Virus record (IMG/VR): IMGVR_UViG_3300042879_002807
Coordinates: 1 to 29,655 of that record
Origin: a virus
Direction: 5' to 3' (one strand)
Length of the DNA: 29,655 nt
Made by a program: the position numbers and the translations under genes
Shown: positions 585 through 23,903 of the stretch, piece by piece
How positions within the stretch are numbered: the stretch's first letter is position 1
Layout: each line of letters starts with the position of its first letter
Notes under the pieces: generated by a model
Database searches by the model: none
Seen by the model: the letters and a program-made list of their open reading frames with translations, nothing else
What the model was told of the DNA's origin: nothing

Positions 585-1556
585 TTATCCCAGTTCGTCA
601 AACCAATACTTAATCATCTCATCAATCATAGATTCAAAAGTATACTTTGGTTTCCATCCCAAATGATCTCTAATTTCTGATGAATCTCCACATAGATAAT
701 TAATTTCTTCTTTTCTTAAATATTTTTCATTTTGAATAACATAATCTTCGTAGTTTAACCCAAGAGAAGTAAAAGTATATTTACATAAATCTCTCACACT
801 CTTAGTCTCTCCAGTAGAAACAATCCAATCCCTAGGTATATTATGATTTAAAATCAGATGCATTGCTCTAATATAATCGTGAGAGTGGCCCCAATCCCTG
901 TAAGAATCTAAATTACCCAATTCCAACTCTTGTTTAAGACCTAGTTTAATTTCAACAGCAGTCTTAACTACCTTATTAGTTACAAAATTAGTTCCTCGTC
1001 TTGGAGATTCATGATTAAAAAGAATACCATTGCAAGCATGAAGTTTATATCCATCACGATAATGTCTTGTCAAATTAAATCCCATTACTTTTGAACACCC
1101 ATACGGACTTACAGGTCTCATAGGAGTTTCCAACCGTTGAAATTTATCTTCATCAATACTATTTCCAAACATTTCTGAAGAACTGGCCTGATAAAACTTT
1201 GAGTTTGGACATCTTGTTCTTATAGCTTCAAGGATGTTAAGAACTCCTAAGGAATTAGTTTTAATAGTAAAAGAAGGAACATCAAAACTAATCCTTACAT
1301 GACTCATTGCAGCAAGATTATAAACTTCATTTGGTTGAACCTCTTCAATTATTTTATACAAAGAATGTTCATCCAACAAATCTCCATAATGACATGTTAT
1401 ATGTTCATCTATATGTTGAATTCTCTCTGTTTGATTTTCAGCTACGGACAACCTTCTAACGATCCCATGAACTTCATAACCAAGTTCTAAAAGATATTCG
1501 GAAAGATAACTTCCATCTTGACCTGTAATACCCGTAATTAAAGCTACTTTACTCAT
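585..1556 (-). CDS. gmd: GDP-mannose 4,6-dehydratase
   Basis: This extended SDR-family enzyme converts GDP-D-mannose to GDP-4-keto-6-deoxy-D-mannose, the first step toward GDP-L-fucose, GDP-rhamnose, GDP-perosamine and related sugars. The 323-residue product opens with the Rossmann motif ITGITGQDGSYLSEYLLELG. It carries the family signature SSSEMFGN and the catalytic YGCSK (YxxxK), and the NHESPRRG segment is typical of Gmd. Length is near the lower end for the family and nothing appears missing. Its ATG overlaps the stop of the upstream cupin gene by 4 nt (ATGA), so it is the last gene of a three-gene radical SAM-cupin-gmd operon. No GDP-fucose synthase (Fcl/WcaG) is recognised anywhere in the window, so the fate of its product is open. 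Confidence 0.95.
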   Translation of the reverse strand: MSKVALITGITGQDGSYLSEYLLELGYEVHGIVRRLSVAENQTERIQHIDEHITCHYGDLLDEHSLYKIIEEVQPNEVYNLAAMSHVRISFDVPSFTIKTNSLGVLNILEAIRTRCPNSKFYQASSSEMFGNSIDEDKFQRLETPMRPVSPYGCSKVMGFNLTRHYRDGYKLHACNGILFNHESPRRGTNFVTNKVVKTAVEIKLGLKQELELGNLDSYRDWGHSHDYIRAMHLILNHNIPRDWIVSTGETKSVRDLCKYTFTSLGLNYEDYVIQNEKYLRKEEINYLCGDSSEIRDHLGWKPKYTFESMIDEMIKYWFDELG

Positions 1557-1969
1557 AGAAACACCTTATCATTTTCTATTCCCATGTAAGGGCCAGTTTT
1601 GTATTCATACACAACGGTATCATCTTCAAGAATTTCATATGTATGACCACCCTCAAAAGTCATGGAACAATCTCCAGGATTGATAATTTCTGTTTCTAAA
1701 AGTTGTCCATCAATATCATACATATAAACTTTTACAGATCCTCGGATAACAACCCACGATTCTTGTGCAATTATTTTTTCTGTAGGAGAGGGTTTCCAAA
1801 TATGTTGATGCGGCCTAAAAGTCTTACCCTGTTCCATTCTAAGAGTTGCTAGTTGAAGAAATTGTTCATTAGGTGAGACATTTGTTCTGTCTGTTATATC
1901 ATTTAATCGATTAATAATATGAAGAAGTTTTTCAGGTTCTTTTTTGGAATAGATGTGTTTCATTTTCAT
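1553..1969 (-). CDS. Cupin-fold metalloprotein, WbuC-like
   Basis: This 138-residue single-domain cupin has putative metal ligands RPHQH, a glutamate in QESWVV and a histidine in EGGHTYE. It ends with a GPYMGIENDK stretch that resembles, from memory, the C-terminus of WbuC-family cupins found in O-antigen clusters. The reaction is unknown; sugar isomerisation or epimerisation is possible but not shown. The first ATG (1969) overlaps the stop of the upstream radical SAM gene by 4 nt, which favours it over the in-frame ATG at 1963. The context of gmd downstream and radical SAM upstream suggests a role in making or modifying a deoxysugar. Confidence 0.75.
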   Translation of the reverse strand: MKMKHIYSKKEPEKLLHIINRLNDITDRTNVSPNEQFLQLATLRMEQGKTFRPHQHIWKPSPTEKIIAQESWVVIRGSVKVYMYDIDGQLLETEIINPGDCSMTFEGGHTYEILEDDTVVYEYKTGPYMGIENDKVFL

Positions 1970-3171
1970 TTAATGTTGTTTTTCCAATATGATAATATCT
2001 CTTTAAATTCTGGTATTATCTCAAATAGATTTTCTTTTCTGGCTTTGTCCATCTCTAGAGTTTTAACTAGAAATTTATATTGAAATATTTTATCGTTTTC
2101 TATTTCATAATCCAAAGCGTTTAAAATATGTGTGAATTTTTCTGATATGTCAACATCATATTTTAAATTATAATCGTCTATAAAAGAAAGTATTTTTTTC
2201 TTTATTTTTACTTTAATGATTTTAGGTATAATATAAACAGAGTAAATTGAATTTTCCAAACCCCCATCAATCAAACTCAAATCATAATTCATATAATTGA
2301 ATGATGAATGAATCCAATTAATATCAGTAAGATATTCTATAATTTCAGGCAATCTAAAAACGTTAAAACATGATACTACTATATTAGTCGATCTATTAAA
2401 TTTTTGAGTAGAAACAATTTTTAAATTTTTTTCAACAGTATTCCACTTAGTTCCCTTTCTAATATACTCAGCTCTGTCTCCGATTTCATCAATACTAGTT
2501 AAAATTGTAAGTTTTTTGGGATTCCATTTATTCCAATAATCTAAAATATTTTTATTTTTATATGACAGTACCGATAGATTTGTATTATAACAAAGTTCTA
2601 TATTTGTTTTTTTGTTCTCAATTAATTTTTCAAGTAAATAATATTGTTCGTCCATTAATGAAGTTTCTCCACCAGCAAACTCTATTAATTGCAAGTGATC
2701 TATATTTTTTTCCAAAAATTCATCAATATTCAATTCTTTAGAATGTTCTAAAATTTCTCCAGTAAAAGAACTACTCAATCTGGGATTACACATTCTACAT
2801 TTAAAATTACATTTATTACTAACTTTAAAATCGTAACCTTTAAATTTTATAGTTTGTATAGATCCATCATCATTTGTATTATCAATTATTTCAGAAAATG
2901 AATCTTTAAAAAAATTATTATATTTTTCTCTTAGACTAATAGCACCCAATTTTTCACTCTGTTTACATACCTCGCAACTAGGAGGAAGTTCATCTTCAAA
3001 CATTGATAATCTAAATTTTTTTATTATCTCATCATTCCAAATTTCTTCAATAGAACTTTCTTTAATATTTCCCAATTCCAATTCATTGCCACAACAAGGA
3101 GTTACTGTACCTTCAGGAAAAATTTCAAGATACAACCATGGCATGATACACTTTGGAACTTTATTACCCAT
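1966..3171 (-). CDS. Radical SAM protein with N-terminal twitch/SPASM-like cysteine domain
   Basis: This 401-residue protein has an N-terminal cysteine-rich module (C8, C26-C27, C66 and C69) of the twitch/SPASM type, expected to hold an auxiliary Fe-S cluster. The radical SAM core follows with CxxxCxxC at C121, C125 and C128 (SNKCNFKCRMC). Placing the auxiliary domain before the core reverses the usual SPASM order and matches 'twitch domain-containing radical SAM' proteins annotated in phage and surface-sugar loci. The substrate is unknown; the cupin and Gmd downstream point to sugar chemistry by association only. The gene is very AT-rich compared with psbA, suggesting separate acquisition. 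It is divergent from the plus-strand radical SAM gene, whose start is 43 nt away. Confidence 0.85.
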   Translation of the reverse strand: MGNKVPKCIMPWLYLEIFPEGTVTPCCGNELELGNIKESSIEEIWNDEIIKKFRLSMFEDELPPSCEVCKQSEKLGAISLREKYNNFFKDSFSEIIDNTNDDGSIQTIKFKGYDFKVSNKCNFKCRMCNPRLSSSFTGEILEHSKELNIDEFLEKNIDHLQLIEFAGGETSLMDEQYYLLEKLIENKKTNIELCYNTNLSVLSYKNKNILDYWNKWNPKKLTILTSIDEIGDRAEYIRKGTKWNTVEKNLKIVSTQKFNRSTNIVVSCFNVFRLPEIIEYLTDINWIHSSFNYMNYDLSLIDGGLENSIYSVYIIPKIIKVKIKKKILSFIDDYNLKYDVDISEKFTHILNALDYEIENDKIFQYKFLVKTLEMDKARKENLFEIIPEFKEILSYWKNNIK

Positions 3172-3214: not shown

Positions 3215-4051
3215 ATGTCAATAAAAACTACTGAGAGAATAAAAGTTCTTGACATTCATATAACTCATAATTGCAATTTGACTTGTGAAAGTTGTTCAGA
3301 TTTTACCAACAGTGGTTTAAATTGGATGATAAGTAAAGAAGAATTTGAAGTTTGGATAAAGAACTGGAATAAGAGAGTTAATCCTTCTATGTTTAATATA
3401 CTGGGGGGAGAACCAACATTACATAAAAATCTAGAAGAATTTTTATATTTAGCTAGAGAGTTATGGGGACCTAACCAAAATATATCACTAATAACAAACG
3501 GTTTTTTTGTACACCTTCATCCAAATTTAAACAAAGTATTAAAAGAAACAAATATAGATCTCTGCGTTTCAATACATACGAAAGACAAGGAATACGTAAA
3601 TAAATTGAAAAAAAATATTTTATTGATGAAAGAGTGGAAAAGAGAAGGTGTATCTGTTTATTTTGCCGACCATTTTTCAAACTGGAGAAAAATATATAAA
3701 GGTTATGGCGAGTCTATATTGCCCTATGAAGATAATGATCCCCAATCTAGTTGGGAAAATTGTTTTGCAGATGAACTAAAATGTTTCCAATTATATGAAG
3801 GTAAACTTTGGAAATGTGCTCCTATAACATACTTAAAAGATATAAGTAAAAAATATAAAATTTCCGATAAATGGGATCCATATTTAAAATATGTTCCCAT
3901 GTCACCAGACTGTTCAGATGAAGAATTAGAAAAATTTTGGAATAGTGAGTGTATGGATATATGTTCTATGTGTCCTGCTAATAAAATTGAAATAAAAGTA
4001 ACAAAAAATCCCTTAATGAGTGTGTCGCAATCCGAAAAATATTATCAATAA
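3215..4051 (+). CDS. Radical SAM protein with C-terminal cysteine cluster
   Basis: This is the only plus-strand gene in the window. The 278-residue protein has a radical SAM CxxxCxxC at C20, C24 and C27 (HNCNLTCESC) and the SAM-contacting GGEP at residues 64-67 (NILGGEPTLH). Further cysteines lie in the C-terminal third, including NCFADELKC, WKCAP and ECMDICSMC. They could ligate an auxiliary cluster. No Shine-Dalgarno sequence is obvious before the ATG. The gene is strongly AT-rich and faces the 2OG-oxygenase fusion gene with only 10 bp between the two stops. It may act with the divergent radical SAM protein on the same substrate, but that is inference from position only. Confidence 0.85.
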   Translation: MSIKTTERIKVLDIHITHNCNLTCESCSDFTNSGLNWMISKEEFEVWIKNWNKRVNPSMFNILGGEPTLHKNLEEFLYLARELWGPNQNISLITNGFFVHLHPNLNKVLKETNIDLCVSIHTKDKEYVNKLKKNILLMKEWKREGVSVYFADHFSNWRKIYKGYGESILPYEDNDPQSSWENCFADELKCFQLYEGKLWKCAPITYLKDISKKYKISDKWDPYLKYVPMSPDCSDEELEKFWNSECMDICSMCPANKIEIKVTKNPLMSVSQSEKYYQ

Positions 4052-4061
4052 TAATTGTAGG

Positions 4062-5162
4062 TTATGCAGGAGAAAATTCTAGATAACTTTGAATCAAGTT
4101 AAAATCACTTCGATTCCTAAGAACAATGTATTCATTTGCAAAGTGAAGTTCAACTCCAGATTCTAAAGCTAAATTGAGAATATTATCTCTCCATTCTTTT
4201 TTATCAGGAAGTGAAAAGATACTCAACATTACAATACCATCTGGTTTTTGTCTAATGAAATGCTGAAGAGATGGACACCAATCCAAATACTCATTTTCAA
4301 ATTGAGAATCGGAGTAACTAATTTTATTTTTTTCACAATAGACATCAATGACATCTCTTTGCATTGGCAGAGGAATGTTTTTAGTATACTTACTACTCCA
4401 ACAATCATAAGTAATGAAATGTCTTCCTGTATAATCTTCAAAGATATCTGAGCGATAATCTCCAGGAAATCTTAGATAACCACCAGGCAATCTCCTGTGA
4501 TAAGGTTCTCCTTCCACAAGGATTCTGATATCCATACTTACTCTAGTAATGTCAGTATCATTGTTTACATTCCCATGAATATGTTCTTGGAAAAATAGAT
4601 GGCATTGACCATAATCAAGGGTAATTGGGAAAGAATGTTTGATTGATTCTTCTTCAAACTTTTCAAGAGACCATTTGTTGTTGATGCATTGTTTAGTAAT
4701 TTTCCTAGAAATTTTTAAAGGAAGCATTTGCATACTATTGGTCTCATAACATTTTGTAAAAGGCATCCATATAGTTCGCAGACCTTTACCATTTCCAACC
4801 CAAATACCTTGATGAAAAAACAATCTACGTGAGTTTTTAGCCTGATTTGGTTCTACAATTCTCAAAGTAGGATATCTCTGAATCAAATACCTCTTATTAC
4901 AAATTCTTTGAGGGATATATTCGGACATAAAATTATCAACCATTTCCATAAAATCTTTTCTGGTTGATGCTCTATGAAAATGTTTTCTAATTTTTGTTAA
5001 CTCTTCTGGTGTAACTTGGAGATGTAAGGTTTCTAATTCCGTTACTTCTGGTTTCACTTCTTGAATTACTGAAATGGCCCATTCTCTAAATTTAAATCTA
5101 CTATTATCATAATTTAGAGTTTTGTTATCCCATTCCAATTGGGTGTTCTTTAACATAGACAT
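4062..5162 (-). CDS. Two-domain protein: StrG-like 2OG-Fe(II) oxygenase plus LIC12192-family domain
   Basis: This 366-residue protein appears to join two families usually seen as separate adjacent genes in 'sporadic carbohydrate clusters' (names recalled from memory). Residues about 80-235 resemble a StrG-like oxygenase: HIHGNVNND at 194-202, RVSMDIRI at 207-214, then the GGYLRFPG segment. Residues about 245-362 resemble the LIC12192 family: ITYDCWSSKYTKNIPLPMQR, PDGIVMLSIFSLPD and SGVELHFANEYIVL. Both families occur with surface-polysaccharide genes, and neither has an established reaction as far as I know. Two in-frame ATGs (5162 and 5156) are possible starts and neither has a clear ribosome site. 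The carbamoyltransferase gene upstream ends 4 nt before it. Confidence 0.7.
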   Translation of the reverse strand: MSMLKNTQLEWDNKTLNYDNSRFKFREWAISVIQEVKPEVTELETLHLQVTPEELTKIRKHFHRASTRKDFMEMVDNFMSEYIPQRICNKRYLIQRYPTLRIVEPNQAKNSRRLFFHQGIWVGNGKGLRTIWMPFTKCYETNSMQMLPLKISRKITKQCINNKWSLEKFEEESIKHSFPITLDYGQCHLFFQEHIHGNVNNDTDITRVSMDIRILVEGEPYHRRLPGGYLRFPGDYRSDIFEDYTGRHFITYDCWSSKYTKNIPLPMQRDVIDVYCEKNKISYSDSQFENEYLDWCPSLQHFIRQKPDGIVMLSIFSLPDKKEWRDNILNLALESGVELHFANEYIVLRNRSDFNLIQSYLEFSPA

Positions 5163-5166
5163 AATA

Positions 5167-6585
5167 TTAATTAAAAACCTTTACTTTATAACATTTTTCC
5201 CATTCTATCATATCTTTATGACTATTGACAATAGGATATCCTTTAATATTTAAACTAGTGTTCAAAAGGATTGGACAACCAGTTTTACTATACCACTGAG
5301 ATAAAAGATCATGAAAAATTGGATTGTCACGTTTATTTAATATCTGAACTCTACTTGTAAAATCTATATGCTGTATTGATGTCAATTCTTTTGACTTACA
5401 TTTAACAGCAAATTGCATATAATTATTTCCACCTTCAAAATAATCCTTAGCATATTCTTCCAAAACAACAGGAGCAAATGGCCTAAACTTTTGTCGTTTT
5501 TTAATGACATTAACCAAATCTTTTATAGATGAATCTCTGGGATCTGCAATTAAACTTCTATTCCCTAAAGCTCTAGGACCAAACTCAGCTCTACCTCTAG
5601 CAATACCACAAATTTTAACATTCAAAAGATAATCAACAATTTCTTTATTAGTAGAAGAATATCCCATATCAAATCCCAGATAAGGACCATCCCACTCAAT
5701 ATGATTTCGTTTATGTGCAAGAACAGCTCCAATTGCAGATCCACTATCTCCTGGAGCAGGCATAATCCATACATTATCATAATAATTAAAACTAATAGGA
5801 TTTGCAGAGCAATTCAATGCACACCCCCCCATCAAAACTAGATTATTTGATTTAACTAAAGATTTGGACAACTGCAAAATCTCATTAAAAATTAACTTAT
5901 AAATTCTTTGAGTAGCTGCTGCAATGTCAAAATAATCTTGTTCCGTTTTTAAATCGGGTCTCCAATTTATACATCCTCGGTGAAGGTTGGTTTTAAATTT
6001 AAAATCTTCTCCAATAAAATCCTCAAATATATTATCAAATAATCTACCAGAATCGCCATAAGCAGACATGCCCATGAGGATGTATTCTTCTTCATTTGGT
6101 TTCAATCCACACCTTTGGGTCATTGCAGAGTACCAAAGTCCGACGCTGTGTGGATATCTACGTTGAAATTTAAGTTTTAGTCTATTACCTTTCGCTTCCC
6201 AAATTGTAAGTGTTTGGAATTCTCCTATAGCATCAATAACCACCACGCAACACTCGTCAAACTGACTAGTGAAATAACCAGCACAAGCATGAGTATAATG
6301 GTGATCATAATACTTGATTGGAACATCAACATACTTCTTGACGTTTTGGATCCATCCTTGACCTGCAAGAAGTTGTCTAAGTGTTTTCTTATACGGGTTC
6401 TCATACCAACAGACCAGTTCTGGTTTTCCAAACTTTAGTGCATAGTTAATAATATCATCATTCAAATATGCATCATTTTTTATACCACTAAATCTCTCAC
6501 TTTCACTTGCGAAAATGAGAGTATCATTCATAAAAACAGAAAGTGCAGCATTGTGACTTTCAGAAGATATTCCCCAAGTAATCAT
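5167..6585 (-). CDS. Carbamoyltransferase (NodU/CmcH/TobZ family)
   Basis: The family transfers a carbamoyl group from carbamoyl phosphate to hydroxyls of sugars or antibiotics through a carbamoyl-adenylate. The 472-residue sequence carries the family landmarks in order: SSESHNAALSVF at the N-terminus, metal-binding DHHYTHACAGYF, GMSAYGD, GGCALNCSANPI, GPRALGNRSLIADPRD, KFRPFAPVVLEE and LNTSLNIKGYPIV. It is shorter than the roughly 570-residue TobZ type but keeps both the Kae1-like N-terminal domain and the carbamoyltransferase C-terminal domain. It lies 2 nt from the SGNH gene upstream and 4 nt from the oxygenase fusion downstream, so the three are probably co-transcribed. The likely role is carbamoylation of a glycan. 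Confidence 0.93.
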   Translation of the reverse strand: MITWGISSESHNAALSVFMNDTLIFASESERFSGIKNDAYLNDDIINYALKFGKPELVCWYENPYKKTLRQLLAGQGWIQNVKKYVDVPIKYYDHHYTHACAGYFTSQFDECCVVVIDAIGEFQTLTIWEAKGNRLKLKFQRRYPHSVGLWYSAMTQRCGLKPNEEEYILMGMSAYGDSGRLFDNIFEDFIGEDFKFKTNLHRGCINWRPDLKTEQDYFDIAAATQRIYKLIFNEILQLSKSLVKSNNLVLMGGCALNCSANPISFNYYDNVWIMPAPGDSGSAIGAVLAHKRNHIEWDGPYLGFDMGYSSTNKEIVDYLLNVKICGIARGRAEFGPRALGNRSLIADPRDSSIKDLVNVIKKRQKFRPFAPVVLEEYAKDYFEGGNNYMQFAVKCKSKELTSIQHIDFTSRVQILNKRDNPIFHDLLSQWYSKTGCPILLNTSLNIKGYPIVNSHKDMIEWEKCYKVKVFN

Positions 6586-6587
6586 TT

Positions 6588-7511
6588 TTAATTAATACGA
6601 GATTTTAAAACTTCTGATAGTGATTTTGATAAACTACTATGAAAATGTCTACTTGGGTGGGAAAAATCTCTCGCAAATTCTGATTGAGATGTACCTCTAT
6701 GATTATACTCAACACTTGGTGGCCAAGATATTGGATTAAAATAAAATCTGTTTTTATTTGGATTCATTTCTTCTATGAATTTATAAGAAAAATAATCAAC
6801 AGAATATTCAATATATGCCGTTTTTGATCTGAACATTTTCCAAATATTGTTCATAGTATTGGAAGTTGTTATACTACGTATAATACTATTAGATCTATTA
6901 GCCTTCATTTGAGATTTATTATCGGTCCAGGATCCACGATGGTGAATGTAATCCCAGTGATAAATCGGATACCTTTGCATTGCAGTTAAGGCAAAAATAA
7001 CTGCTTTGGGTTTAGGATATTGGGTCAGTAAGATATTTGAATTATAGGTATGAAATTCATTTGAACTTCCACCAACGCCCATATTAATTACAGGCAAATT
7101 CATTTCCTTTTCCAAAAAATAACTTAATGTATGAAAATCATCTACTCCAACACCTTGAACATAAGAACAACCAAAAATTACTATAGAATTAGCCCAATCT
7201 ATTTCATTAAAATTTTTAGTTCTATATCCAAAAGAGTTTAAAGTATAATTTACTGTATTATTTTTATAATACCAGTCATCTTTAGATAATTTTGAATTAA
7301 ATCTAAAAGTTTTTTCATCATCTTGTCCACAATAATTCCAAGTAGTATATGAATTATCTTCTTTTAAAGTTTCTATTGATTCGTATTTTTCTCTAATTAA
7401 GTGGTCAATATTATTAAAATTATTTGTACCATCAGTACCCTGTGCAAAGGATCCATCTGGAAAAGGCATAAAAGTATTATTTTTTATACCTTCCAAAATT
7501 ATAGAGCGCAT
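6588..7511 (-). CDS. SGNH/GDSL-type hydrolase-like protein
   Basis: The 307-residue protein has SGNH-type landmarks. IVIFGCSYVQGVGV could supply the block I nucleophile serine. NMGVGGSSNEFH fits block II glycine, and DFSHPSRHFH near the C-terminus fits a block V DxxH. Many sugar O-acetyl esterases or acetyltransferases use this fold, so deacylation or acylation of the glycan made next door is plausible but unproven. The first about 100 residues resemble nothing I recognise. The gene is AT-rich. An AT-rich inverted repeat (ATATTATAT/ATATAATAT separated by 3 bases) lies just upstream at about 7513-7533. It may contain a promoter, since the minus strand reads TATAATATAAATG into the start codon. 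Confidence 0.6.
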   Translation of the reverse strand: MRSIILEGIKNNTFMPFPDGSFAQGTDGTNNFNNIDHLIREKYESIETLKEDNSYTTWNYCGQDDEKTFRFNSKLSKDDWYYKNNTVNYTLNSFGYRTKNFNEIDWANSIVIFGCSYVQGVGVDDFHTLSYFLEKEMNLPVINMGVGGSSNEFHTYNSNILLTQYPKPKAVIFALTAMQRYPIYHWDYIHHRGSWTDNKSQMKANRSNSIIRSITTSNTMNNIWKMFRSKTAYIEYSVDYFSYKFIEEMNPNKNRFYFNPISWPPSVEYNHRGTSQSEFARDFSHPSRHFHSSLSKSLSEVLKSRIN

Positions 7512-10382: not shown

Positions 10383-11870
10383 TCAGAACCTAAACTGGGT
10401 CTGGATGACACCACCATAGTTGGAAGATGCGTTCTTAAATGCCTGATTGTTGGAGACATAAAAGATTGCGGGAGTGATACTGATATTATCACTAACTTTG
10501 TAACGATAGAAAGCTTCCCACATCAGAGAGTCTTGAGACAGAGTAGGTGCGTTGCCAGGAGCACCGATTGCAAAACCAGCAGCATTACCCTTAGCAAACA
10601 CATCACTCCACTGAACGCCTGCCATCCAGGTCTGGGAGTTGGTTGCAGCGTTAGGGGTTGCAGGACCACTTACATAGTTCCAACCATAAGCGGCAGAGAT
10701 CGAAGGAATGATACCTGATTTATTAGGTTGCCAGTAAGCATTCAGAGCATAACCGTTGGAACCTTGATTAACACCAAGAGTACCACCATTACCGTTCACA
10801 CCATTGAAAGTACGAATACGAGTTCCTTCAGTACCATTACGATAACCAAAGGCGATACCGTACTGAGGGGCACGATAACCAAGTTGAACCAGAGTGTTCA
10901 GAGCACCAGAGGCATCAAATTCACCTTTGGTAGAATCCGAACCGTTTTGGGCAACATAGTTAATAGCGGCAACGAATCCACCCTTACCTTTTTTGGTAGG
11001 CTGGGCCCATTGAGCACCGAAACCAGAACCAGTTGCCTTGTTATAGACACCAGGAGCACCAGCAACAGCAAAGAAGTCAAGAATGTCCGACTTATAAGCA
11101 GTAGGAATCCATGCCATCTCAGTGTTACGAACCAAAGCACCAGCAGTCAGAGTCACACCCTTAGCGAGTGCAGGGAAACTGTAGTACAAACGGTCAATTT
11201 GGACGTTGTTGGAGGTACTTTCCGCCTTATCCAGTTTGAACAGTGAAGAAGAAGAACCAAAGGGTTGACTGGAGAAGTTACCAGAACGCAGACGAGTCTT
11301 CAACAGATCCTTACCAGTGAAGGAAGTATCAAAGTTCAGACGAAGGTCATAGTTAAATGCGGTATTACCAACATTAGTATTGTTAGTAAGACGAGCACCA
11401 CTTACACCACCAAGAACGAAGGTTGCTTCACCACGCAGTTTGGTAGTGGTGGAGAACTGAGTTGCTTGAAGTTGACCAACCTGAGTTTCCAGTTTGGTAA
11501 CACGACCACGAATGACAGTAAGTTCGCTGGAGAACTCATTCATCAGACGAGAAAGTTCATCGGTAACTTCAGACACGCGATCGAGACAAGCATTAAGAAG
11601 TGCTGCTGCCTCAAAACGAGTCATTGACTTTTGGCCACCATAGTTTCCATTAGGATAACCCGCTACGCAACCATAACGTTCAACAAGATTACTGAGTGCC
11701 TGATAGGCCCAATCAGTAGGTTTTACATCAGACAATTGAGTGATACTTGAGACCTGTTCCGAAGTAGAATATTGGTTGACTGCTGCCATATTAAGATCTG
11801 CGGCATTCGCAGCAACAGGAGCAACCATTCCCAGAGCAACAGGTGCAAGCATCAGTTGTTTGAGTTTCAT
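10383..11870 (-). CDS. Outer-membrane porin, SLH-OprB type (cyanobacterial Som-like)
   Basis: The 495-residue precursor has a signal peptide (MKLKQLMLAPVALGMVAPVA, cleaved after ANA). An SLH domain follows at about residues 40-95 (DVKPTDWAYQALSNLVERYG, SMTRFEAAALLNACLDRV). A short coiled coil comes next (about 98-128, TKLETQVGQLQA), then a long beta-barrel rich in aromatic and glycine residues, ending in F as outer-membrane porins do. I chose the ATG at 11870 because it creates the signal peptide; an upstream in-frame extension would cross the regulatory hairpin. Its Pho box suggests the phage makes this porin under phosphate stress, presumably to feed PstS by letting phosphate cross the outer membrane. 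Barrel selectivity cannot be read from the sequence. Confidence 0.93.
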   Translation of the reverse strand: MKLKQLMLAPVALGMVAPVAANAADLNMAAVNQYSTSEQVSSITQLSDVKPTDWAYQALSNLVERYGCVAGYPNGNYGGQKSMTRFEAAALLNACLDRVSEVTDELSRLMNEFSSELTVIRGRVTKLETQVGQLQATQFSTTTKLRGEATFVLGGVSGARLTNNTNVGNTAFNYDLRLNFDTSFTGKDLLKTRLRSGNFSSQPFGSSSSLFKLDKAESTSNNVQIDRLYYSFPALAKGVTLTAGALVRNTEMAWIPTAYKSDILDFFAVAGAPGVYNKATGSGFGAQWAQPTKKGKGGFVAAINYVAQNGSDSTKGEFDASGALNTLVQLGYRAPQYGIAFGYRNGTEGTRIRTFNGVNGNGGTLGVNQGSNGYALNAYWQPNKSGIIPSISAAYGWNYVSGPATPNAATNSQTWMAGVQWSDVFAKGNAAGFAIGAPGNAPTLSQDSLMWEAFYRYKVSDNISITPAIFYVSNNQAFKNASSNYGGVIQTQFRF

Positions 11871-11902
11871 AAAAAGTTTTTTTGTTCTATAGGACATAAT
11901 GA

Positions 11903-11933
11903 TTAACCGTGCAAGTAGTTGCGGCACGGTTAA
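11903..11933 (-). promoter_or_regulatory. Perfect 10-bp inverted repeat in the porin leader
   Basis: TTAACCGTGC (11903-11912) and GCACGGTTAA (11924-11933) are separated by 11 bases and lie 33-63 nt upstream of the porin ATG. The outer end reads CTTAACCG on the minus strand, like half of a Pho-box repeat. It is either an operator or an mRNA hairpin. Confidence 0.55.
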
Positions 11934-22856: not shown

Positions 22857-22885
22857 ATTCTAGTTCAAAATATCTATTTTTGCAA
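22857..22885 (-). promoter_or_regulatory. Candidate promoter of the 13-gene glycan operon
   Basis: TTGCAA (22885-22880) and TAGAAT (22862-22857) are 17 bp apart on the minus strand, overlapping the stop of the two-domain oxygenase gene and ending 34 nt before the GME start. The -35 differs from consensus at two positions and the -10 at one. Confidence 0.4.
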
Positions 22886-23903
22886 CCTTTAATTCAATAA
22901 TAGAATTAAAATCTAATGTTGTAATATTTGTTGGATCAGTAAAAGCTTTTATTGCTAAAGAAAATCTATCCGATTTTGTAAATGGAGTTAAAGGTAAAAC
23001 CTTATGTTCTATTTCAGAATCAAATACAACTATCCTGCCAGGAACAAAATCTACTATTTTATTAACGGATGTATTAATATCATCATAAAGTTTTAGTTCA
23101 CCACCCCAAGTTTCATCCCAATACTTATTACAAAAAATTAAAATAGTAACAGATCCTGGTAAAAAAGAATCCGTATGTCTATTTACATATGAAATCTGGG
23201 AATAGTGATTAATATAAAACTCCCTTAAGTATAAAGTAACTCCAATTTCATTTACAATTTCCTGTATGGATGGTATAATTAAAGTATTTTCAAATTCTTT
23301 TTTGGATAAATGACACACTAATCTATTATCTCTTTCTGTAGATAACATGTCACTAATTTGTTGAAATTTATAATTAGATTGTAGGCAATAAGTGTGCAAA
23401 TAATTTAATTGCGATCTACTAAGTTTGCCATCAAATACATATAAATTATTTTTACAAGGTTCTAAAGACATATTTAAATTATAATAGTATTTTAATCTCT
23501 GTTGTATTGTTTTTAAATGTTTGAAACTAATATCATCCAATTCATTAATTTGTTCCAATAAATTTGCATACTCTATAATATACAAATCTTTTTGCATTTT
23601 TGATTCAAATTTATGTGATAATATATTTTCAATTCTATTATCAATTTTAGAATAAAAATATACAAGATTTTCGGCATCATTGCCTATTATTTTTTTAATA
23701 TGATCTCTATCTATATTACTATCAAACTCAAAATAACAAGTACCATATATTGCGTGATATAATCCAGCATCAATTAAATATTGATGTTCTGAAAAATATT
23801 GTTGTATTATTTTAGATGTATTATACAAATGTTCAAAAAAAGTTTTATTCCCATGTTGAACATTTTTTGTTTTATCGAAAACGAATTTAAGTTTTTTATT
23901 CAT
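22860..23903 (-). CDS. Two-domain protein: DUF6817-like HD-type domain plus 2OG-Fe(II) oxygenase
   Basis: The 347-residue protein appears to join two domains. Residues about 15-110 carry an HD-like pattern, QHGNKTFFEHLYNTS and DAGLYHAIYGT (H17, H25, H50), which resembles the DUF6817 family as I recall it. Residues about 150-325 form a prolyl-4-hydroxylase-like 2OG-Fe(II) oxygenase: H243 and D245 in NRHTDSF, WGGELKLYDD, then H300 in SEIEHKVLPL and R313 for 2-oxoglutarate. Substrate unknown. The gene is strongly AT-rich, has no ribosome site, and its ATG lies about 8 nt after a terminator T-run, which suggests a recent insertion. It precedes the glycan operon. Confidence 0.75.
   Translation of the reverse strand: MNKKLKFVFDKTKNVQHGNKTFFEHLYNTSKIIQQYFSEHQYLIDAGLYHAIYGTCYFEFDSNIDRDHIKKIIGNDAENLVYFYSKIDNRIENILSHKFESKMQKDLYIIEYANLLEQINELDDISFKHLKTIQQRLKYYYNLNMSLEPCKNNLYVFDGKLSRSQLNYLHTYCLQSNYKFQQISDMLSTERDNRLVCHLSKKEFENTLIIPSIQEIVNEIGVTLYLREFYINHYSQISYVNRHTDSFLPGSVTILIFCNKYWDETWGGELKLYDDINTSVNKIVDFVPGRIVVFDSEIEHKVLPLTPFTKSDRFSLAIKAFTDPTNITTLDFNSIIELKVAKIDILN

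Follow-up and report, generated by a model that had tools for sequence, protein, structure and literature searches.

An oxygenase-like domain with an HxG iron motif fused to a recombinase-derived domain in phages: a putative sugar-modifying, perhaps sugar-halogenating, enzyme

Introduction

The closest described relatives of the protein reported here are two families of the sporadic carbohydrate cluster, the 2OG-Fe(II) oxygenase family TIGR04324 (SpoChoClust_2) and the LIC12192 family TIGR04323 (SpoChoClust_1), and a text search of the open literature gave no open paper naming LIC12192, TIGR04323 or TIGR04324. With respect to the chemistry, the oxygenase half can be compared to the Fe(II)/2OG halogenases (SyrB2, CurA Hal, WelO5, BesD, AdaV, DAH), whose mechanistic mark is a Gly/Ala in place of the Asp/Glu iron ligand, leaving one coordination site open to the halide (PMC12346261). 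For plant DAH this D-to-G switch has been traced (PMC12346261), and the Asp/Glu to Gly/Ala exchange has been used as a motif to screen for nucleotide halogenases (PMC11186838). However, human AspH carries an HXG...H motif and yet hydroxylates, and FIH retains some activity after an Asp-to-Gly exchange (PMC10947486), so that HxG alone is no proof of halogenation. A precedent for cyanophages carrying halogenases is given by flavin-dependent enzymes (Gkotsi et al. 2019, as cited in PMC10452541). Unlike the protein described below these are flavin enzymes, with an unrelated fold and mechanism.

Results and Discussion

The window, by which we mean the whole stretch of 29,655 nucleotides that was analysed (IMG/VR virus record IMGVR_UViG_3300042879_002807), resembles large Synechococcus myoviruses, the best record being S-SCSM2R with 31% covered. 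The gene of interest and its two domains are as follows.

4062..5162, minus strand: fusion gene, TIGR04324-like oxygenase plus TIGR04323-like domain, 366 aa, ATG start (NCBIfam HMMs, recurrence, AlphaFold2)
4443..5162, minus strand: N-terminal domain, aa 1-240, PhyH-type 2OG-Fe(II) oxygenase fold (TIGR04324 match at aa 25-220, VIA-align, Foldseek)
4065..4433, minus strand: C-terminal domain, aa 244-366, a TIGR04323 member with serine-recombinase-like fold (model match over aa 262-361, fold, profiles)

A sequence-only reading of this DNA had proposed that the gene fuses two sporadic carbohydrate cluster families, and all four peptides it quoted are found in the 366-aa minus-strand ORF. When the protein was compared to the NCBIfam models using hmmscan, TIGR04324 matched aa 25-220 with 91.1 bits (E 8.2e-26) and TIGR04323 matched aa 262-361 with 45.8 bits (E 5.1e-12), without overlap and with no other credible NCBIfam match. 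Each model thus hits its own half as had been predicted, in position and with significance, at scores below the curated cut-offs of 150 bits for TIGR04324 and 55 bits for TIGR04323, and therefore automatic annotation would give neither family name to the protein. Judged from these matches, the fusion protein is a remote member of both families. A search of Pfam found no real domain in it and PHROGs had no family for it. The two folds that had been expected were also seen in the AlphaFold2 model, which consists of two folded domains (pLDDT 87.4, pTM 0.85). That the C half is a normal extension of the oxygenase can be ruled out, as it is a separate gene in bacteria. Promoter and terminator scans gave signals at chance level only.

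The spread of the fusion among viruses was followed by searching IMG/VR with the full-length protein as well as with either half alone and by six-frame scanning of the matched contigs, which resulted in 32 non-redundant viral proteins (that of the window included) having both halves in one frame; where aligned, the others share 37-89% identity with the protein of the window. This recurrence rules out an assembly artefact as the source of the fusion. It is also present on a short contig binned as uncultured Pelagibacter, which is possibly viral (L050), and on a 957-kb Roseivirga genome contig (L051). Neither the GenBank collection of sequenced phages nor the plasmid collection yielded a relative of the fusion. 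Several of the loci are from MAGs or short viral contigs, and the genome samples are partial. On several contigs (L032, L034-L039) two copies of the fusion gene lie in tandem (pairs at L032:1782-4066, L034:2366-4650, L035:3844-6128 and L037:3832-6128), the first copy having a strongly diverged C domain with altered IPLPMQR and LHFANE motifs but retaining HQG in its oxygenase half.

In bacteria, where the pair would serve to make surface sugars, the two families are encoded by separate genes with the oxygenase first, which is the order of the phage fusion. In 41 of 44 cases a TIGR04323 ORF directly follows a TIGR04324-type ORF of the same orientation, beginning at about -16 to +62 nt relative to its stop, and most of the pairs overlap slightly or almost touch, as in translational coupling. 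The assumption that both families are normally neighbours was therefore correct, and the evidence says that TIGR04324 and TIGR04323 are one functional unit. TIGR04323 was detected in 20 of 369 genomes of the Bdellovibrionota group, in 6 of 398 genomes of the Pseudomonadota sample and, mostly as weak matches, in 3 of 395 genomes of the Bacteroidota sample. In the Pelagibacter order the fusion profile gave hits in 19 of 247 genomes. Unfused pairs of the HxD type were found on only three viral contigs, as separate genes in each.

To describe the iron site of the oxygenase half, four positions are needed.

4806..4814, minus strand: H117-Q118-G119, iron motif with Gly in place of Asp/Glu (alignment, PtlH comparison)
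4575..4577, minus strand: H196, second (distal) iron His (invariant in 87/87 domains; aligns with the distal His of PtlH)
4581..4583, minus strand: H194, possible replacement ligand (in 34/35 HxG proteins, mostly Leu in HxD proteins)
4542..4544, minus strand: R207, 2-oxoglutarate-binding Arg as predicted by family (invariant in 87/87 domains)

Using VIA-align the best match of the predicted N domain was PtlH (Z 14.7, 3.7 A, 210 residues), and using Foldseek it was the CurA halogenase domain (E 2.9e-9), which has the same PhyH-type fold. A profile of 25 N-domains matched PtlH, an Fe/2OG hydroxylase of solved structure, with E 7.7e-5 and placed H117-x-119 on its H-Q-D and H196 on its distal His. 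Matches of the N-domain profile to characterised halogenases were weak (SyrB2 E 0.09, CytC3 E 0.18). H117, H196 and R207 are present in all 87 N-domains, whereas at position 119 there are 50 domains with Asp, two with Glu and 35 with Gly. Thus, the fusion shares the distal His, the Arg, the oxygenase fold and the TIGR04323 partner with TIGR04324 and differs from it in being joined to this partner and in its motif, since the 2-His-1-carboxylate motif HxD...H is HxG in 35/35 members of the clade described below and HxD/E in the 52/52 others. The loss of the Asp/Glu ligand to Gly with both His kept is the mark of the Fe(II)/2OG halogenases, and it had not been mentioned in the sequence-only reading.

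The 35 HxG proteins are exactly 34 fusions and one adjacent pair (L052, HTG, from a Bacteriovoracaceae MAG). In a tree built from N-domain columns only, leaving out column 119 and the remotest rows, they form a monophyletic clade with a support of 100/95. As the fused proteins group without L052 at 77/89, the Asp was probably lost before the fusion took place; alternatively, as L052 comes from a MAG, it might be a fusion that was split by a frameshift. A stand-alone oxygenase of the HxD type, distantly related to the N half, is encoded a few kb from the HxG fusion on two contigs (L008:2253-2867, L009:2-460).

The neighbourhood of the fusion in the window comprises the following genes.

5167..6585, minus strand: NolO/NodU-type carbamoyltransferase, upstream neighbour (adjoins the fusion in L005 and L006, too)
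3215..4051, plus strand: radical SAM gene between fusion and wbuC, on the opposite strand (conserved in L005 and L006)
1966..3171, minus strand: SPASM/twitch radical SAM gene between fusion and wbuC (NF033640, 312 bits)
1553..1969, minus strand: WbuC-family cupin (TIGR04366, 43.5 bits, cut-off 42)
585..1556, minus strand: GDP-mannose 4,6-dehydratase-like gene (PF16363, E 8e-112)

The fusion starts 4 bp behind the carbamoyltransferase gene. In close relatives (L002, L003, L004, L007) it is followed directly by the WbuC cupin and then by the GDP-mannose 4,6-dehydratase-like gene, in L040, L041 and L045 it is followed by a GDP-mannose-dehydratase-type gene, and the Roseivirga fusion is flanked by FUT8/NodZ-like genes with gmd homologues close by. 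A WbuC cupin is also located near one bacterial pair (L092). The glycan island of the window additionally contains three GT11-type genes, a GT10-type gene, an O-FucT-type gene, a UDP-glucose dehydrogenase, an NAD synthase and epimerases. The carbohydrate setting that had been assumed for the fusion is thus supported, and GDP-mannose dehydratase, WbuC cupin and fucosyltransferases as neighbours suggest a GDP-6-deoxyhexose or a fucosylated glycan, so that the setting points to 6-deoxyhexose/fucose glycans. Against this stands that in some of the more divergent phages neither gmd nor wbuC lies near the gene.

Other genes of these phages deserve mention. The same island encodes a further fusion, of DUF6817 (PF20680) and a 2OG-FeII_Oxy_3 domain (22860-23903, minus strand), and the window also encodes an OprB-type porin with an SLH domain, of the cyanobacterial outer-membrane type (10383-11927, minus strand), a similar gene being present in Synechococcus phage S-SRM01. 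Between carbamoyltransferase and peroxiredoxin lies a gene for a 307-aa protein (6588-7511, minus strand) with a weak GDSL/SGNH-like match below the cut-off (PF14606, E 0.005). Near the fusion on contig L033 (2664-3872 and 7301-7888) a class-V aminotransferase (IscS/cysteine-desulfurase-like), a NifU/IscA-type Fe-S protein, HSP20 and a peroxiredoxin are encoded, and similar Fe-S-type gene clusters were seen in the divergent fusion phages L025, L026, L030, L031, L035 and L047, which makes a phage Fe-S supply set possible.

The C domain modelled alone (pLDDT 88.8) showed the highest similarity in Foldseek to the catalytic domains of serine recombinases (TP901-1 integrase, E 4.6e-5), and after VIA realignment the top 31 rows were all serine recombinases with Z from 12.6 to 8.6, after which Z falls to 7.4 for periplasmic-binding lobes. 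The comparison of TIGR04323-type domains with ten resolvase domains in hhalign gave a probability of 92.9 (P 3.8e-7) and reversed, shuffled and unrelated controls gave 0.0-0.3, the N-domain row of the control being invalid as its alignment contained fused C-domain residues. Moreover, the TIGR04323 model matches a true resolvase (L099, itself matching PF00239 with E 4e-26) with E 2.9e-4. The link to the recombinases follows from the fold, the profile-profile alignment and this weak match; when the C-domain sequence itself was searched in the PDB, no serine recombinase and only a weak dehydroquinase match (E 0.07) was obtained. Phage and bacterial TIGR04323 domains align in hhalign with a probability of 99.3 (E 1.5e-20, 118 columns), and they differ in an S-R pair that is invariant in ten aligned bacterial domains and absent from the phage C half. 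The D-R..R motif of the recombinases is not kept, KLDRLGR being aligned by hhalign with the non-catalytic SIFSLPD, and the catalytic Ser/Arg of the first-strand loop, which lies outside the hhalign alignment, seem on visual inspection to be missing from the phage form. As it has the recombinase fold without the D-R..R motif, the C half is a recombinase-derived domain in another use, and unlike PF00239 proteins it has no DNA-binding domain and is found with sugar enzymes.

What this use might be is indicated by the partners of the domain. In the phages TIGR04323 is fused on its N side to the oxygenase, whereas elsewhere it carries on its C side a SAM methyltransferase (L074, L076, L078, L079, L087) or a sugar aminotransferase of the DegT type (L084, L085); such fusions (L084:352-1878, L085:376-1845, L076:1462-2553 and others) are from genomes of the Bdellovibrionota group. 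For a module that occurs with an oxygenase, with methyltransferases and with aminotransferases, a role in docking or substrate binding is more probable than one fixed catalytic step. The sequence-only reading had taken both halves as enzymes acting one after the other on the same substrate, which would make the TIGR04323 half catalytic, a question that depends only in part on what the N half catalyses. The obligate adjacency of TIGR04324 and TIGR04323 and conserved polar residues of the C domain in a 15-protein alignment (e.g. E289, S314, R325, E344) would fit to this, but a serine-recombinase fold whose D-R..R motif falls on non-catalytic residues, and which is joined to different enzyme classes as is typical of a docking or binding module, makes it clearly unlikely, and a docking partner explains the arrangement at least as well.

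For the oxygenase half halogenation is the leading, if tentative, candidate chemistry, based on the analogy of its putative iron site to that of the halogenases. It differs from these in its sugar setting and shows no significant sequence match to them, and the highest VIA Z being that of a hydroxylase speaks against halogenation. It is somewhat unlikely that the half is a two-His hydroxylase, epimerase or desaturase by which the sugar would be hydroxylated or otherwise oxidised and not halogenated. AspH, which shares the two-His HxG...H site, acts on EGF-like domains and is absent among the structural matches listed for the fusion, is a natural example, PtlH as best VIA match is a hydroxylase and ordinary oxygenase activity is expected of the 50 HxD relatives; however, AspH has been termed highly unusual among structurally characterised hydroxylases (PMC10947486), and the other natural HxG/A enzymes in PMC11186838 and PMC12346261 are halogenases. 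H194, two positions ahead of the distal His, could be a third iron ligand and would then count against halogenation, as a three-His site in which it replaces the lost Asp would lead to a different, perhaps 2OG-independent chemistry. It is present in 34 of the 35 HxG proteins and mostly Leu in the HxD core, yet one HxG protein (L018) has Met at this position and the conserved Arg together with the fold suggests retained 2OG binding, so we regard such a site as very unlikely. Finally, the loss of one iron ligand might indicate an inactive pseudo-oxygenase with a sugar-binding or structural role, but even proteins with no more than 31-47% identity to the window protein have, without exception, the two His, the Arg and the motif around them, which suggests a maintained active site and renders this highly improbable.

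With halogenation as the preferred chemistry, the halide would fill the empty iron site to give a ferryl-halide, from which Cl or Br would be transferred to an unactivated C-H of the sugar, the likely substrate being a GDP-linked 6-deoxyhexose or a fucosylated glycan. The former serine-recombinase domain would perform no strand exchange and might instead dock the oxygenase to the sugar or its carrier and to other tailoring enzymes, the end effect being a modified glycan produced during infection. As a whole, we read the fusion, with a rough probability of 0.4, as a sugar-tailoring complex of two proteins in covalent form, encoded within the glycan island of a large cyanomyovirus of the Synechococcus type. 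That it represents a new family of sugar-acting Fe(II)/2OG radical halogenases, found mainly in phages and fused to a repurposed serine-recombinase docking partner with a GDP-6-deoxyhexose or fucosylated glycan as substrate, is conceivable and rather doubtful.

Conclusion

In summary, this gene of a marine cyanophage may encode an unusual viral enzyme that modifies, and perhaps halogenates, sugars. The LIC12192 family gains a fold, that of a repurposed serine-recombinase domain, and the phage branch is singled out by its halogenase-type iron site. If sugars are halogenated, this would be a class of halogenases with carbohydrate substrates, and cyanophages would have a second type of halogenase unrelated to the first; if the enzyme hydroxylates, it would be a natural example of a two-His oxygenase other than AspH. 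Either outcome would show whether the HxG motif alone safely predicts the chemistry.
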